Shown piece by piece: positions 4,577-9,204 of a stretch of DNA of 9,204 nucleotides. This stretch comes from Candidatus Iainarchaeum sp. (GTDB taxonomy: Archaea > B1Sed10-29 > WALL01 > JAGHAM01), in NCBI GenBank assembly GCA_021161465.1, contig JAGHAM010000018.1:1-9204 (forward strand), in the 5' to 3' direction. How positions within the stretch are numbered: the first letter of the stretch is position 1; the number at the start of each line of letters is the position of its first letter. A program made the translations under genes and the position numbers. The notes under the pieces are model-generated. The model was not told the DNA's origin, did no database searches, and saw only the letters and a program-made list of their open reading frames with translations.

Positions 4577-7500
4577 TTAGTCCTCTTGATGACTTTTTCC
4601 TATTCCTTCTATCTCTGTTAATGCTACATACACTGCAGCTAGTGCTGTTATTATTGCTATCAACCCAAGCGCTATTTCTATTCCACCCATTGCTGTAGCA
4701 TATCCCGTTAGTGGCGACGTAGATACTTTCATATACTGTAGGTGTGCAGCTGTTGTCGTGTTGTCTTTGTTTCCACTCATATCCTGGCAAAAAACAAATA
4801 CATCGTTAACGCCATCATCCAGCCCGCTTATGTTACATGTAATTGAGGTTGTTCCACTGCCATTACAATCGCCTGAAGCCTCATCATAGCCGGTGTTCTT
4901 AAAGTCCCATCTACACTCTCCAGCTTCACTTAGCGAGAAGCTTAGCAAGAAGGAGTCATTCACAGTTGTTTGGTTTGATGGGCTCCACCCGAATTTCTCT
5001 GGTGGTGCCATATCCTCGGTTTTGTTTTCAACTCTGTGGCATTCTATCCTATCCTTTGACCAACCATCAGGACAATCTTCTGGGAATAATTTTCCAATCC
5101 TCATGTCTCCAATACACTTATAACACCTAATCTGGCTTGATGCGTTGGTGTTCGTTTCTCCACTCACTGTCGGAGCAGGTACAATAATGCGCCTGCGCCT
5201 ATGATGGGATGTGCTTGCCTCTGTGTTTTGTGTTGGGCTGGCTGGGCAGTCCTGTGGACACGAGATGCTGTCTTCATCAGATGTGCATGCACCATCACCA
5301 CACCAGCTTTCTTGTTTTATGCCAAACCCGCTTAGGGAGTCAAGCTCAAAGGTAAATGTGTTCCTGCCTTCGTCTTGGATGCCGCTGATTGGTGTCCAAT
5401 CACCATTACAGGTTCTTTCCTGCATATCCCAGTCATCACATTTGTATGTCCCAAGATAGTCTTCGTTTGAATAGCCTGTGCCAGCATAACTTACAGTTAG
5501 AAGGATACCATCTGCATTGTAGTTGGTATGTACACCATAGACAATCAAAAAGTTGGTTGGGCCGAAACTATCAAACCTTACCCTCCCATCCAGGTTGTCT
5601 GATATATTCACATTGTGTAAAACGAGGTCTATAGAGTTATCGAGTGTTTCAAGCTCTAGGTCATATACACCGCCAACTAAATTACCATAGAAACTTCCAT
5701 CAGGCATGCTATAAACCGCAATCTTAGTGCCGTTAACATACATTGATAGGTGGCAGGGTACCCCACCACCGGACTGGTTCTCCACACTAATGCTAAAGCT
5801 TGTCAACCTGCCAACCATAAGATATCCTGTTTCACTATCTTCGCCAAGGGAATTGTTAGCAACCACTGTTATCTCATACAAGCCCTCTACTGCGGGTGTT
5901 ATTGTTGTATTATCACAATTGGTAAGCGGAACAGTTAATTGAGTCCCGTCTGGAAGGATGACTCTCGCAATTATTGCTTGAGCATTACTGGCGTTTACAA
6001 AGATGTCAACATCACCATCTACTTCAACATTATCTGGGCTTATATTAAATTCATTAATAACTGGTAGTTCTGTTGGTGTTTGTTCGACAGAGAAGTTCAG
6101 GGAGAGATTGTTATTGCTTTCATTTTGTTCCTCTATGTTGTTTTCTGGATCAAGCCTTAAGCTTAATGTGTGATTCCCGGCACTGGCAAGCCAACTGGCT
6201 TTAATCGTTGCGATGGAATAGCTTGGCAAAAGAAGCTCTCCCGTAAGATTTCCAGTTATAGCAAGGACACAGCTACCATTCGTATGGATTAAGATTGGTC
6301 TGCTTGAGTTTATATTGAAATCTGTTGTTTCTCCACAGGAGTGGTTCAATAGGTTGCTGCCATTTGATTGCTGTATTCCATCGACAGTTGCACAGAACTC
6401 ACATATATCCTCGGCTGTCCAGTTGCTGTTTAGCGGTAGCATCATTGTGTTCAGACCCGTTTCAACCGGAACCAGCATACTAGTGATTCCGCCAGTTGTT
6501 GCGTTTGAGTCAATTAAAAGCTGAAGTTCGGCTGGCTGCCCCATCGATGCACCCATATTTGAGACGTTTGCGGTTATGTTAGCGTAGTCCCCCTCACTGA
6601 TAGGCGTGGTAATACCCAGTGAAATGGGTGTTAAGTCTGGAAGGTCTGGTGCTTCAGAGTTGCACTGTGAGATATCCCGTGCTAAGCTATTGTTGAATAA
6701 GTAGAACACAAGTAGGTCTCCATTCCCCACGCAAGAATCTCCATTTAGGTCAGAGCTATTTGAATAGTCGCTACTTCCATAGCAGCTCCAATAGTGCTGG
6801 ATTAGCTCGTTGTAATCCTTGTCATCTACTACACCGTCCTCATTGATGTCTGGACACCTTACCAACTGGGAGCAGTTTGTGCTTTCTTCCCAATGCCTGC
6901 TTACTACAGCTAGGTCAAATATGTTTATGACTCCGTCATAGTTTAAATCATACCCAAGAGTGTCGCCAAGCCAGTGCTGTTTCAGGATATCGGCATCCGA
7001 GCTGTTGACGAAGCCGTCATGGTTCAAGTCAGGGCAGGGGCTAACTTCTTCTTTGTATACCTCTAGCTCGCCAACTGCTGATGTTATCGAGTTTCCAGAC
7101 TCATCTATGGCTACAAGACTCATAGAATAGTTCCCGGGTTTTATTAGAGGTACGGCATACACGATTGGCTGTTCAGTTGCGTTATCCAGGTGGAAATCTA
7201 TAAAGCTGGCTGTTTTGTTGTTTACAGCTAACCTTATCCCCACAGTTAGGGGATAACTACTACTGTTGAACCATATCCTAATCTGCTTTCCTGCCTTCAT
7301 CTTTGCTGGGAGTATTGGACTGGTCGTGATGTTTGTTATAACCAGTTGGGTGTTCTCGACATTAAAGGGCAGGTAAACCGCAGAGTAATCGTTATAGCAT
7401 TTTGGGATTCTCACTTTTAGGTATCTAAAGTTTGAAATATTCTGCATTAGATATCCTTGTTTTTTCCACCCGTGCGTTGCTTTTTCTGTCATTACGGGGA

Positions 7501-9204
7501 TACTGGCTATTTTTTCCCAGGTTTGATTATCTATGGATGAATACAGTGCGGCAGTGCTCTTGCATGCTGTGTGATGCCCTGGTTTTACTACAATATACAC
7601 ATTTGTGTAGTTTTCAACGATAGTTCCAATATCATGAACGTGCGATACCCTGAAACAACAGCACTTGTCTGCTGGTTCCCCTGTCAACCCAGCTGGATTA
7701 CTGTATCCAATGCCGTTTCCGCATTCTTCAGCCAAGGCGAATCCTTCTGGAGGCGTGTCTATCCTTTGATAATTCTGAGCCGTTGTCGCCTTACCAGAGA
7801 AATCCACGCTTATGGCCTTTGAGTTTCCATATATATCTGTACAGTTTACCTCCGCGGTATAGTTAGTGTCTGTGTGTATTGTTATGTGTTGCACGTGGGA
7901 ATAGCCATTTGTTGTCTCCATTATATCCCAGCCTATTGTGGAATTCCCAGACTGGTTTGAAATGGAAAGCATGTATGAGCAATTGGAGGGGTTGTTTGTC
8001 AATAAGCTGATACTGGACTCTCCTGCATCGATAGTGGAACCCTCTTTAGGTGATATCAAATACAGCAGAAGCGAGGGGGCACCCGCCTCGCAATCTGAGT
8101 CATTTTCATCTACAAGCCCATCACAGTCGTTATCAACATCATCATTGCAGTTCTCCCTCGCGCTGCAGGAGTAGCCAGCTGGGAAGCAATGAGTCCCACC
8201 ATTAGCATAGTAGAGTATCCCAAGCAGGTCTACATCAGTTAGGGCATCATCACCATTTACATCAATACAGCATAAGTTATCTCCTGTAAATTGGATAATC
8301 CCGCTTCCTATCTCTAAAGCTATATTCGCGTCGGTTTCATTTATTTCGCCATCATTGTTCAAGTCGCCTATCAACTGGTCTCCGCCAGCGCATGAAATTA
8401 CATTGGGCTGATTGCAAGCAGGGGTTTCCACACAGTCCGAATCCTCACAATCAACCATGCCATCACAATCGTTGTCTAAACCATCAGTGCATATGGTTTC
8501 TGTTGTTTCATAGTTAGGTATGGTTGTGTAGTTACAACCTGGCCATTTGCCATCCGTGCAGCTCTCCACAGAGTTGTCACACACACCATCTTGATTTGGG
8601 CATAATCTTGTTTCACCCTCGTTGCACTCAGGGCAGTTACAGTCTGGGTCTTCATTGCCTTGTTGGCAATCAACTAACCCATCACAGTCATTGTCAATGC
8701 CATCAGTGCAGTCCAACTCTTTTTGAGAGCCATACGCGCCGCACCCGGAGCTACAGCAGTAGTCCTTATCAGTTCCAGAGAGGGGGCTTTCACAGTCGAT
8801 TACTTTTTTGACGACACAATCCGCGTCACCAGGGTATCCGCCGCATTTGAAGAGCCTATATTCTGTTCCATGGCAACCGTTCTTTGATGGGCAGTAAGTC
8901 CTTTTAGAATCATCATGCCTGCAGGTGTTTCCATCTGCATACCAATCTTGATACTCTTTATAATTACCATCACAATACCAGCCGTCCGATGGATTAAAGT
9001 GTCCTGTAGCTGTGCAAGCACCTTGCTGGCAGCCACCAGTTCCATCACTAAAGTAATTGTGGTATTCCTTGTAACAACCATAGCTGGTGTCCCAGGCCTC
9101 CGAGTACCAACAGTATTTGTAGACTGGTTTGCATACATCATTCTCACAGTAATACTCTTTTAGCCATGCATTTTGGGCATAAGGTTCTCTCCCACAAGAG
9201 TCTA
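4577..9204 (-). CDS. Giant modular, heavily glycosylated surface protein, C-terminally membrane anchored (N-terminus beyond right edge)
   Basis: Secreted cell-surface protein, at least 1541 residues. The frame is open to the window edge, so the start lies outside; an internal TTG at 8716 is not the start. Domains, counted from the first whole codon at the edge: Cys/Tyr-rich repeats (13-94), more Cys-rich sequence, MopE-like repeats (165-188, 238-257, 352-371), dockerin-like pairs (279-334, 723-771, 783-834), Ig-like beta domains (376-468, 622-717, 1044-1132, 1400-1492), a discoidin-like sandwich (475-617), one full and one partial CARDB-like domain (852-1039), a carboxypeptidase-regulatory-like fold (about 1134-1212) with a beta domain after it, CGDG Cys motif (1301-1319), linker with RRRR (1335-1338), a Cys cluster (1360-1388), then PLTGYA and a transmembrane helix (1508-1529) with a short cytoplasmic tail. 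I count about 47 N-X-S/T sequons, all after residue 223. It carries no catalytic motif I can see; adhesin, S-layer-associated or carbohydrate-binding roles are all possible. Confidence 0.92.
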   Translation of the reverse strand, partial: DSCGREPYAQNAWLKEYYCENDVCKPVYKYCWYSEAWDTSYGCYKEYHNYFSDGTGGCQQGACTATGHFNPSDGWYCDGNYKEYQDWYADGNTCRHDDSKRTYCPSKNGCHGTEYRLFKCGGYPGDADCVVKKVIDCESPLSGTDKDYCCSSGCGAYGSQKELDCTDGIDNDCDGLVDCQQGNEDPDCNCPECNEGETRLCPNQDGVCDNSVESCTDGKWPGCNYTTIPNYETTETICTDGLDNDCDGMVDCEDSDCVETPACNQPNVISCAGGDQLIGDLNNDGEINETDANIALEIGSGIIQFTGDNLCCIDVNGDDALTDVDLLGILYYANGGTHCFPAGYSCSARENCNDDVDNDCDGLVDENDSDCEAGAPSLLLYLISPKEGSTIDAGESSISLLTNNPSNCSYMLSISNQSGNSTIGWDIMETTNGYSHVQHITIHTDTNYTAEVNCTDIYGNSKAISVDFSGKATTAQNYQRIDTPPEGFALAEECGNGIGYSNPAGLTGEPADKCCCFRVSHVHDIGTIVENYTNVYIVVKPGHHTACKSTAALYSSIDNQTWEKIASIPVMTEKATHGWKKQGYLMQNISNFRYLKVRIPKCYNDYSAVYLPFNVENTQLVITNITTSPILPAKMKAGKQIRIWFNSSSYPLTVGIRLAVNNKTASFIDFHLDNATEQPIVYAVPLIKPGNYSMSLVAIDESGNSITSAVGELEVYKEEVSPCPDLNHDGFVNSSDADILKQHWLGDTLGYDLNYDGVINIFDLAVVSRHWEESTNCSQLVRCPDINEDGVVDDKDYNELIQHYWSCYGSSDYSNSSDLNGDSCVGNGDLLVFYLFNNSLARDISQCNSEAPDLPDLTPISLGITTPISEGDYANITANVSNMGASMGQPAELQLLIDSNATTGGITSMLVPVETGLNTMMLPLNSNWTAEDICEFCATVDGIQQSNGSNLLNHSCGETTDFNINSSRPILIHTNGSCVLAITGNLTGELLLPSYSIATIKASWLASAGNHTLSLRLDPENNIEEQNESNNNLSLNFSVEQTPTELPVINEFNISPDNVEVDGDVDIFVNASNAQAIIARVILPDGTQLTVPLTNCDNTTITPAVEGLYEITVVANNSLGEDSETGYLMVGRLTSFSISVENQSGGGVPCHLSMYVNGTKIAVYSMPDGSFYGNLVGGVYDLELETLDNSIDLVLHNVNISDNLDGRVRFDSFGPTNFLIVYGVHTNYNADGILLTVSYAGTGYSNEDYLGTYKCDDWDMQERTCNGDWTPISGIQDEGRNTFTFELDSLSGFGIKQESWCGDGACTSDEDSISCPQDCPASPTQNTEASTSHHRRRRIIVPAPTVSGETNTNASSQIRCYKCIGDMRIGKLFPEDCPDGWSKDRIECHRVENKTEDMAPPEKFGWSPSNQTTVNDSFLLSFSLSEAGECRWDFKNTGYDEASGDCNGSGTTSITCNISGLDDGVNDVFVFCQDMSGNKDNTTTAAHLQYMKVSTSPLTGYATAMGGIEIALGLIAIITALAAVYVALTEIEGIGKSHQED
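4616..4714 (-). other. C-terminal PLTGYA motif and membrane anchor
   Basis: The surface-protein end. Residues 1497-1502 are PLTGYA, then a short Gly-rich stretch, then a hydrophobic helix at about 1508-1529 (IEIALGLIAIITALAAVYVALT), then a short charged tail ending KSHQED. All glycosylation sequons lie before it, consistent with an extracellular body and a small cytoplasmic tail. The TGYA block resembles a short 'TG-x-x' juxtamembrane motif I associate with secreted proteins of DPANN archaea; no role is known to me. Confidence 0.72.
5243..5305 (-). other. CGDG-type cysteine motif
   Basis: Surface-protein residues 1300-1320: CGDGACTSDEDSISCPQDC, a four-cysteine motif that often follows Ig-like domains in secreted prokaryotic proteins next to MopE-like repeats. 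The four cysteines (1301, 1306, 1315, 1319) probably form two disulfides. A flexible Ser/Thr/Pro linker with four arginines follows. Confidence 0.65.
6086..6649 (-). other. CARDB-like domains (one complete, one partial)
   Basis: Surface-protein residues 852-1039. The first unit starts at PDLPDLTPISLGI, has the N-x-G strand NVSNMGASMG and ends with ATVDGIQQSNGSNLLNHSC, the usual 'VDxxxxvxEsNExNN' end of CARDB cell-adhesion domains. The second shows only the latter part, with LRLDPENNIEEQNESNNNLSL. CARDB domains are Ig-fold modules of archaeal and bacterial surface proteins. Sequons are dense here. Confidence 0.7.
6701..6856 (-). other. Dockerin-like calcium-binding pair 3
   Basis: Surface-protein residues 783-834. 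The loops DINEDGVVDDKD and DLNGDSCVGNGD are joined by a linker with WSCYGSSDYSNSS. The second loop has Ser-Cys after the third ligand instead of Gly, a slight departure. In tandem with pair 2 this makes four calcium loops in about 110 residues. Confidence 0.77.
6890..7036 (-). other. Dockerin-like calcium-binding pair 2
   Basis: Surface-protein residues 723-771. The loops DLNHDGFVNSSD and DLNYDGVINIFD are both textbook dockerin/EF-hand loops, each followed by a helix ending in a tryptophan (QHWLGD and RHWEES). It directly follows an Ig-like domain and is separated by only about a dozen residues from pair 3. Confidence 0.83.
7352..7780 (-). other. Discoidin-like beta-sandwich domain
   Basis: Surface-protein residues 475-617. 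The segment has the rhythm of an F5/8 type C (discoidin) or galactose-binding-like sandwich: NVYIVVKPG, a middle strand with LYSSIDNQTWEKIASI, and NFRYLKVRIPKC near the end (the 'R-Y-L-R-I' strand of such domains). A cysteine triplet (residues 514-516) and two histidines (HVHD) follow the first loop. Such domains usually bind glycans or lipids. Assignment is by pattern memory only. Confidence 0.48.
8090..8149 (-). repeat. MopE-like Cys/Asp repeat 3
   Basis: Surface-protein residues 352-371: CNDDVDNDCDGLVDENDSDC. One Gly of the usual DG is replaced by Asp, but the DNDCDG core and final DSDC are intact. It marks the end of the Cys-rich half; Ig-like and discoidin-like beta domains follow. Confidence 0.8.
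8201..8368 (-). other. Dockerin-like calcium-binding pair 1
   Basis: Surface-protein residues 279-334. Two EF-hand-like loops of dockerin spacing (D-x-N-x-D-G-x-h-N-x-x-D): DLNNDGEINETD (280-291) and DVNGDDALTDVD (314-325), each followed by a hydrophobic helix. Ligand positions D280, N282, D284, D291 and D314, N316, D318, D325 are all filled. The pair sits between MopE-like repeats 2 and 3. In cellulosomes dockerins bind cohesins; no cohesin is recognisable here. Confidence 0.75.
8432..8491 (-). repeat. MopE-like Cys/Asp repeat 2
   Basis: Surface-protein residues 238-257: CTDGLDNDCDGMVDCEDSDC, the most canonical of the three copies. It is preceded by a spacer ending in SCTDGKWPGC and PNYETTETI, a leader commonly seen before such repeats. 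The DNA matches the coding of repeat 1 closely over the DNDCDG core, consistent with duplication. Confidence 0.83.
8639..8710 (-). repeat. MopE-like Cys/Asp repeat 1
   Basis: Surface-protein residues 165-188: CTDGIDNDCDGLVDCQ, closing with a DPDC. The C-x-D-G-x-D-N-D-C-D-G signature matches the short 'putative metal-binding' repeat named after the copper-binding protein MopE, common in secreted proteins of many bacteria and archaea. The Asp/Asn side chains probably bind Ca2+ or another divalent ion, with the cysteines paired. A Cys-rich spacer with the GETRLCPNQDGVC pattern leads into repeat 2. Confidence 0.8.
8921..9166 (-). repeat. Cys/Tyr-rich tandem repeats with a K-E-Y core
   Basis: Part of the surface protein, residues 13-94 from the right edge. 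At least two good copies share W/Y-x-C, then YKEY, then a D-G-x-x-C end: YGCYKEYHNYFSDGTGGC (41-58) and WYCDGNYKEYQDWYADGNTC (75-94), with the YKEY cores 37 residues apart. LKEYYCENDVC (14-24) looks like a degenerate or partial third copy. Together with the following sequence there are 17 cysteines in the first 162 visible residues, pointing to a disulfide-stabilised extracellular module. More copies may lie beyond the window. I know of no named family for it. Confidence 0.68.

Follow-up and report, generated by a model that had tools for sequence, protein, structure and literature searches.

The window analysed here (9,204 nucleotides) is the entire contig C22 of a 40-contig, 976-kb genome that is 93% complete, and the organism is inferred to be a DPANN archaeon related to Diapherotrites. 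It contains the long reading frame of a predicted surface protein on the minus strand, convergent with a ferredoxin gene. The features are listed below from the N-terminal end of the protein, with residues numbered on the window frame.

4577..9202, minus strand: surface protein reading frame, 1541 codons, 5′ end open in the window, stop codon at 4577-4579
9078..9204: exact 127-base overlap between the window and the end of contig C8 (L044:8731-8857)
8723..9202, minus strand: Cys-rich N-terminal region, residues 1-160, no Pfam match
8624..8719, minus strand: acidic Cys repeat 1, residues 162-193, NF033662 type, teneurin C-rich-like, containing D-N-D-C-D-G
8414..8500, minus strand: acidic Cys repeat 2, residues 235-263
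8165..8398, minus strand: dockerin 1, with F-hands DLNNDGEINETD and DVNGDDALTDVD
8090..8158, minus strand: acidic Cys repeat 3, residues 349-371
7772..8077, minus strand: Ig-like segment (Big_13, sub-threshold)
7361..7771, minus strand: discoidin / CBM32 / F5-F8C-type domain (predicted fold), residues 478-614, with a family-specific HVHD motif and conserved cysteines
7037..7360, minus strand: second Ig-like segment, residues 615-722, of which 632-715 also occur in the positional orthologue
6653..7036, minus strand: dockerins 2 and 3 in tandem, four F-hand loops
6083..6655, minus strand: CARDB-like region, best stretch residues 996-1034
5795..6085, minus strand: PKD/Ig-like segment, sub-threshold
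5303..5794, minus strand: first part of the C-terminal core, without a Pfam family, conserved in the positional orthologue of the related genome G001
4730..5305, minus strand: CGDGxC motif, basic linker, small Cys module and last Ig-like domain
4622..4690, minus strand: single C-terminal transmembrane helix (predicted), followed by a tail of ~12 residues
4295..4480, plus strand: 4Fe-4S ferredoxin, convergent with the surface protein gene here and in G001, serving as synteny anchor

The first-pass annotation, made from the sequence of the window alone, had described a single open frame of at least 1541 codons ending in a membrane anchor, had called for the N-terminus to be sought beyond the window, and had noted that an upstream stop or frameshift would divide the frame into two genes. 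The frame is present as described, with its 5′ end open, and one C-terminal transmembrane helix is predicted. De Bruijn assembly with k=127 leaves neighbouring contigs with exact overlaps of fixed length; besides the 127 bases that the window shares with C8, contigs C24 and C8 likewise have one exact 127-base end in common, and ‘k127’ appears in the record names of the nearest relative, G001. Joining C8 to C22, on the basis of the exact overlap rather than of sequencing reads, gives a full-length protein of 1,597 aa: C8 adds 56 residues with an ATG start (L044:8565), and a signal peptide, MKGDFLSLVLVSFILLVAGANS, is predicted within this part, outside the window. Reading across the C8 overlap reveals neither a stop nor a frameshift upstream of the window frame, so that the visible frame is a single gene starting 56 residues beyond it.

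Following the Cys-rich N-terminal region, which together with its C8 part starts CIDTDGGKNWDVQG and resembles the DSDGGKDY module of an Aenigmatarchaeota protein (L081), the order of modules is repeat 1, repeat 2, dockerin 1, repeat 3, Ig-like, discoidin, Ig-like, dockerins 2 and 3 in tandem, CARDB, PKD-like, C-terminal core and anchor. This corrects the arrangement first proposed, in which three MopE-like repeats interleaved with three dockerin pairs and the discoidin domain came after the dockerins: the repeats flank dockerin 1 only, and the discoidin domain precedes the dockerin tandem. The module assignments themselves fared better. CARDB (PF07705) passes its curated Pfam cut-off (1e-8, 35.7 bits vs 22.7), and dockerin type I (PF00404) does so over four stretches (5.6e-16, 58.9 bits vs 22.9).

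The acidic Cys repeats had been likened to the copper-binding protein MopE. As repeats they are real, passing the cut-off of NCBIfam NF033662 (acidic double-disulfide repeat; 4.5e-15, 55.1 bits vs 41), but the MopE identity does not hold, Cu-binding MopE (PF11617) scoring below its threshold (5.6e-5, 23.7 bits vs 27). Among PDB structures, the repeats match the teneurin-4 C-rich domain best (PDB 7PLP, 1.2e-6 for repeat 2), followed at weaker scores by teneurins 3, 2 and m. In the reverse direction, the teneurin-4 sequence matches NF033662 at 5.3e-12, over the cut-off, and teneurin-3 falls just below it. In 7PLP, three calcium ions are bound via E835, D840, D843, N844, D845, D847, D851, D854 and D856, and disulfides join residues 838-857, 852-863 and 858-869 (PMC9058538). 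Repeat 2 retains all nine of these side-chain calcium ligands together with four of the six cysteines, those of the first two disulfides; repeat 3 retains eight of the nine ligands and lacks one cysteine. The copper reading was consequently set aside, because the Pfam cut-off failed whereas the teneurin calcium ligands are kept. Over the 25 repeats examined at loci of this genome and G001, the position of D851 is acidic in 24 and that of D854 in 17, where insertions in some repeats shift the later alignment columns and where D843, N844, D845 and D847 carry no evidential weight, since they belonged to the search pattern.

The likeness to the teneurin C-rich domain thus comprises the calcium ligands, the cysteines of the first two disulfides and, on the teneurin side, an NF033662 score over or near the cut-off. 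Unlike teneurin, whose disulfides pair cysteines 1-3, 2-5 and 4-6, the archaeal repeats have cysteines for the first two bridges only and carry an extra conserved Cys in ‘DNDCDG’; the rest of the protein is unrelated. As the cysteines of the third disulfide are absent, the repeats are described here as C-rich-like. From the ligand pattern we infer that the archaeal repeats bind calcium. A resemblance of the teneurin motif to putative metal-binding motifs of bacteria and algae was noted in 2012 (Tucker et al., as cited in PMC6425310), and the teneurin-type calcium repeat is the most useful new point of the present analysis. Thirteen acidic repeats are found in this genome and twelve in G001, compared with 0-4 elsewhere.

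The dockerins, too, carry a well-preserved set of predicted calcium ligands. Asp or Asn occupies calcium positions 1, 3, 5 and 12 in all six loops of the three modules, and Gly6 is missing in two of the six. The tandem of dockerins 2 and 3 matches the CelS dockerin structure (5.1e-6); its AlphaFold model, obtained from single-sequence input, has a pLDDT of 36, which is too low to interpret. Dockerin 1 has additional cysteines, CC ahead of the second loop and CFPAGYSC behind it, and is linked by CFPAGYSCSARENC to acidic Cys repeat 3. Paralogues on C39, C40 and C18, as well as G001, contain the same dockerin-CFPAGYSCSARENC-acidic repeat unit, which therefore acts as a shuffling unit. Altogether, six dockerin loops and three acidic repeats make nine predicted calcium-binding loops or sites. 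Taking into account this ligand conservation, calcium-dependent stiffening, which the first-pass annotation had offered as one role of the dockerin and ‘MopE’ modules, is a good reading of both, the stiffening itself being a putative consequence of calcium binding.

The other role considered there was docking to a cohesin-bearing partner. Within the same cell this finds no support: searching the 93%-complete genome with the cohesin profile PF00963 retrieves nothing at E <= 10, and a search with the G001 cohesin protein finds no homologue there, despite 11 dockerin matches, the highest number among the 61 genomes searched. Docking in trans to another organism has to be weighed separately, since cohesin matches (E <= 0.01) occur in 11 of the 61 genomes, namely G001 and ten others. 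That the dockerins are true docking modules for a cohesin of a partner organism, or for one whose gene lies in the ~7% of the genome missing from the assembly, is rather unlikely in our judgement. They are complete two-loop modules matching cellulosomal dockerins, and G001, which belongs to the same family and is the nearest relative, has a cohesin protein that carries a signal peptide. A more distant archaeon also has a minimal two-gene pair (L088:358-2686) in which a carbohydrate-binding-like cohesin-dockerin protein adjoins a membrane-anchored cohesin protein. Furthermore, ANME-2c and its bacterial partner both highly express cohesin/dockerin proteins (PMC10553843). By analogy with what has been proposed for ANME consortia, such docking might hold the cell to a partner, a corollary that we consider no less doubtful than the docking itself. 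Against docking stand the cohesin searches in this dockerin-rich genome and the constant fusion of the dockerin to an acidic Cys repeat, together with its added cysteines, which fits a structural role.

A role of the protein in a cellulosome-like scavenging system, with its carbohydrate-binding and dockerin modules recruiting secreted hydrolases, is extremely unlikely. The CBM32 fold is frequent in glycoside hydrolases and cellulosomes typically have dockerins; however, PF00963 detects no cohesin-bearing scaffoldin in the 93%-complete genome, and domain searches, in agreement with the first reading, find no catalytic domain beside the dockerins of the surface protein, nor in the dockerin-bearing paralogues scanned.

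The discoidin-like assignment is upheld by the predicted fold and by a paralogue. The domain of the surface protein itself has no direct Pfam match; it is homologous to the copy in the paralogue (E 9.5e-17), which matches F5_F8_type_C (PF00754) at 7.5e-13, over the cut-off. The model of residues 478-614 (pLDDT 91, pTM 0.86) is a discoidin-type beta-sandwich. Its best VIA-align match is the CBM32 of AlyQ (Z 10.0, rmsd 2.8, 111 aligned), the top ones among the VIA-align matches listed are discoidin/CBM-type domains or proteins containing such domains, and Foldseek returns a match at E 6e-4. While the predicted fold is that of CBM32/F5-F8C domains, the sequence belongs to a subfamily with the motifs CC(C)...HVHD...GC...CYNDYS and with invariant G, S, D, HxHD and Cys positions. 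Members occur in relatives of the same order and in records titled Diapherotrites, Micrarchaeota, Aenigmatarchaeota and Altiarchaeota, as well as in one record titled bacterium (L083:4648-6540), where the HVHD discoidin follows a peptidoglycan-binding-like segment and the gene adjoins pheT- and gyrB-like genes. A search of viral contigs for the domain gave 33 pattern matches, none of which was confirmed. CBM32 domains are mostly glycan binders, which suggests, without proving it, that the discoidin domain is a head; on the modelled fold it is likely a ligand-binding head, and by analogy its ligands are probably glycans.

Comparison with G001 shows which parts of the gene are stable. There, the convergent neighbour of the ferredoxin homologue is a gene whose product aligns over its last 444 residues with residues 1097-1540 at the C-terminus of the surface protein (34%, E 8e-78), while its segment just upstream aligns with the Ig-like part 632-715 (E 2e-9). 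Since the two matches are contiguous in G001, about 400 residues comprising dockerins 2 and 3, CARDB and the PKD-like segment were gained here or lost there. The positional orthologue keeps the Ig-like domain and the C-terminal core and is without dockerins, MopE-like repeats, discoidin and CARDB; its N-terminal half differs, has its own signal peptide and lies in another frame. Gene position and core are therefore conserved and the exposed modules are not, and DPANN surface proteins are seen to swap modules between relatives of one family. The G001 orthologue is spread over two overlapping frames (L069:1807-3525 and 389-1873), with an apparent frameshift within an Ig-like domain that may be real or an assembly artefact.

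At least 10 further contigs of this genome encode proteins with the same modules. One of these proteins reaches 1743 aa, so that the description of the present protein as ‘giant’ holds in a relative sense only. It belongs to a large surface repertoire and is not evidently the main coat. The first-pass proposal of a main envelope protein loses its footing here, because there are many paralogues, one of them longer, and because the modules of the positional orthologue are not conserved. A principal S-layer-like envelope protein forming the cell coat would be in keeping with large size, membrane anchoring and many Ig-like folds and sequons, but it is highly unlikely, given the many other modular surface proteins, a G001 orthologue that lost or never had most modules, and a Pfam search that recognised no lattice domain.

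The sequons are in clear excess. N-x-S/T occurs 47 times in the surface protein vs 16 for S/T-x-N, and shuffles within 30-residue blocks give 20.8 +/- 3.9, with a maximum of 35 in 2000, which points to N-glycosylation as a possible modification. For the oligosaccharyltransferase (STT3/AglB), PF02516 finds nothing in the 93%-complete genome and TIGR04154 gives two chance-level matches only, which by their sequences resemble an amino-acid permease and a GT-C membrane protein, respectively, and were rejected; the sequon excess is thus without a matching enzyme.

Collectively, it is reasonably probable that the protein is a type I-anchored modular adhesin with a discoidin/CBM32 head, a stalk stiffened by calcium and disulfides, and dockerins that do not act as plugs for cohesins of the same cell. 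The signal peptide would export the protein and the C-terminal helix would hold it, leaving about 1,500 residues extracellular. Dockerins and acidic Cys repeats would bind calcium, and calcium, disulfides and the Ig, CARDB and PKD domains together would make a stiff stalk, which may present the discoidin head to glycans on another surface or in a matrix. The first-pass view of a membrane-anchored, non-catalytic, adhesin-type surface protein agrees with the signal peptide, the anchor and the outcome of the catalytic-domain searches, adhesion being the presumed function.

A narrower form of this adhesin reading is a host-contact adhesin for an episymbiotic lifestyle, by analogy with the long surface proteins of Nanohaloarchaeota. 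The genome is that of a DPANN archaeon (~0.98 Mb), and large surface proteins have been proposed as mediators of DPANN host contact (PMC10266531). The nanohaloarchaeal SPEARE proteins are likewise DPANN membrane-anchored proteins with Ig-like modules; however, they reach 8,880-9,409 aa, beside which the present length is ordinary, and carry a cytosolic VirB4/TraG ATPase domain, in contrast to the ~12 residues that follow the helix here (PMC10266531). Specific host contact is judged quite improbable.

Surface proteins of adhesin type that carry dockerins or discoidin domains are already known in ANME archaea and Omnitrophota. The cohesin/dockerin and CARDB surface proteins of ANME are also archaeal and non-cellulolytic and have been tentatively linked to adhesion, but ANME genomes have many cohesins, including scaffoldin-like proteins, whereas none is detectable here (PMC9012536, PMC5244752). 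Among the Omnitrophota, the available text of PMC10066038 reports adhesin-like ORFs of >20 kb with discoidin PF00754 and nine dockerins in one ORF. These giant ORFs, too, encode large surface proteins with discoidin or non-cellulosomal dockerin modules and are proposed adhesins; they differ in being bacterial, in exceeding 20 kb and in having dockerin and discoidin in separate proteins, and acidic Cys repeats are not described in that text. A limited literature search found no match for the exact module mix.

In archaea, cohesin-less dockerins are common and have no accepted explanation. In the present case they occur in a genome without a detectable cohesin, in a unit with a second predicted calcium module that has a solved animal relative binding three calcium ions, and the ‘structural joint, not plug’ idea is therefore testable with small fragments. 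The disulfide-bearing dockerin and the teneurin-type repeat fused to it could be a compound module that has expanded across the family and serves as a calcium-set rigid joint, not as a plug, while being recombined among surface proteins that differ in their heads from one close relative to the next, a possibility that we hold somewhat more tentatively than the adhesin reading. If true, a structural role as calcium joints may apply to many archaeal dockerins that lack cohesins, and the teneurin C-rich domain would be one member of a widespread prokaryotic calcium module.

Several minor observations concern the other surface proteins. The 1743-aa protein (L046:3538-8769) has an N-terminal third composed of an array of small ‘CCSGHCC’ Cys repeats, whose match to a conotoxin-like Pfam profile most likely reflects the Cys pattern only. 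A 901-aa protein (L012:9672-12377) combines FG-GAP (integrin-type) repeats, a dockerin and a pilin-like N-terminus. Contigs C39 and C40 (L010:1-170 and L011:1-170) start with 127 identical bases within the dockerin-acidic-repeat unit and are 93.5% identical over 170 bases, which indicates either a recently copied unit in two paralogues or an assembly branch point. Two different surface protein genes have 121 bases at 97.5% identity near their ends, in the cytoplasmic tails (L047:3063-3183 and L046:3309-3429), a sign of gene conversion or recent duplication. Directly before the membrane helix, a motif [L/I]TG[Y/L]AT (window 4675-4710) reads SPLTGYAT here and PITGLAT in the G001 orthologue, a VTG also stands before the helix in a second surface protein of G001, and the motif could be a sorting or processing signal.
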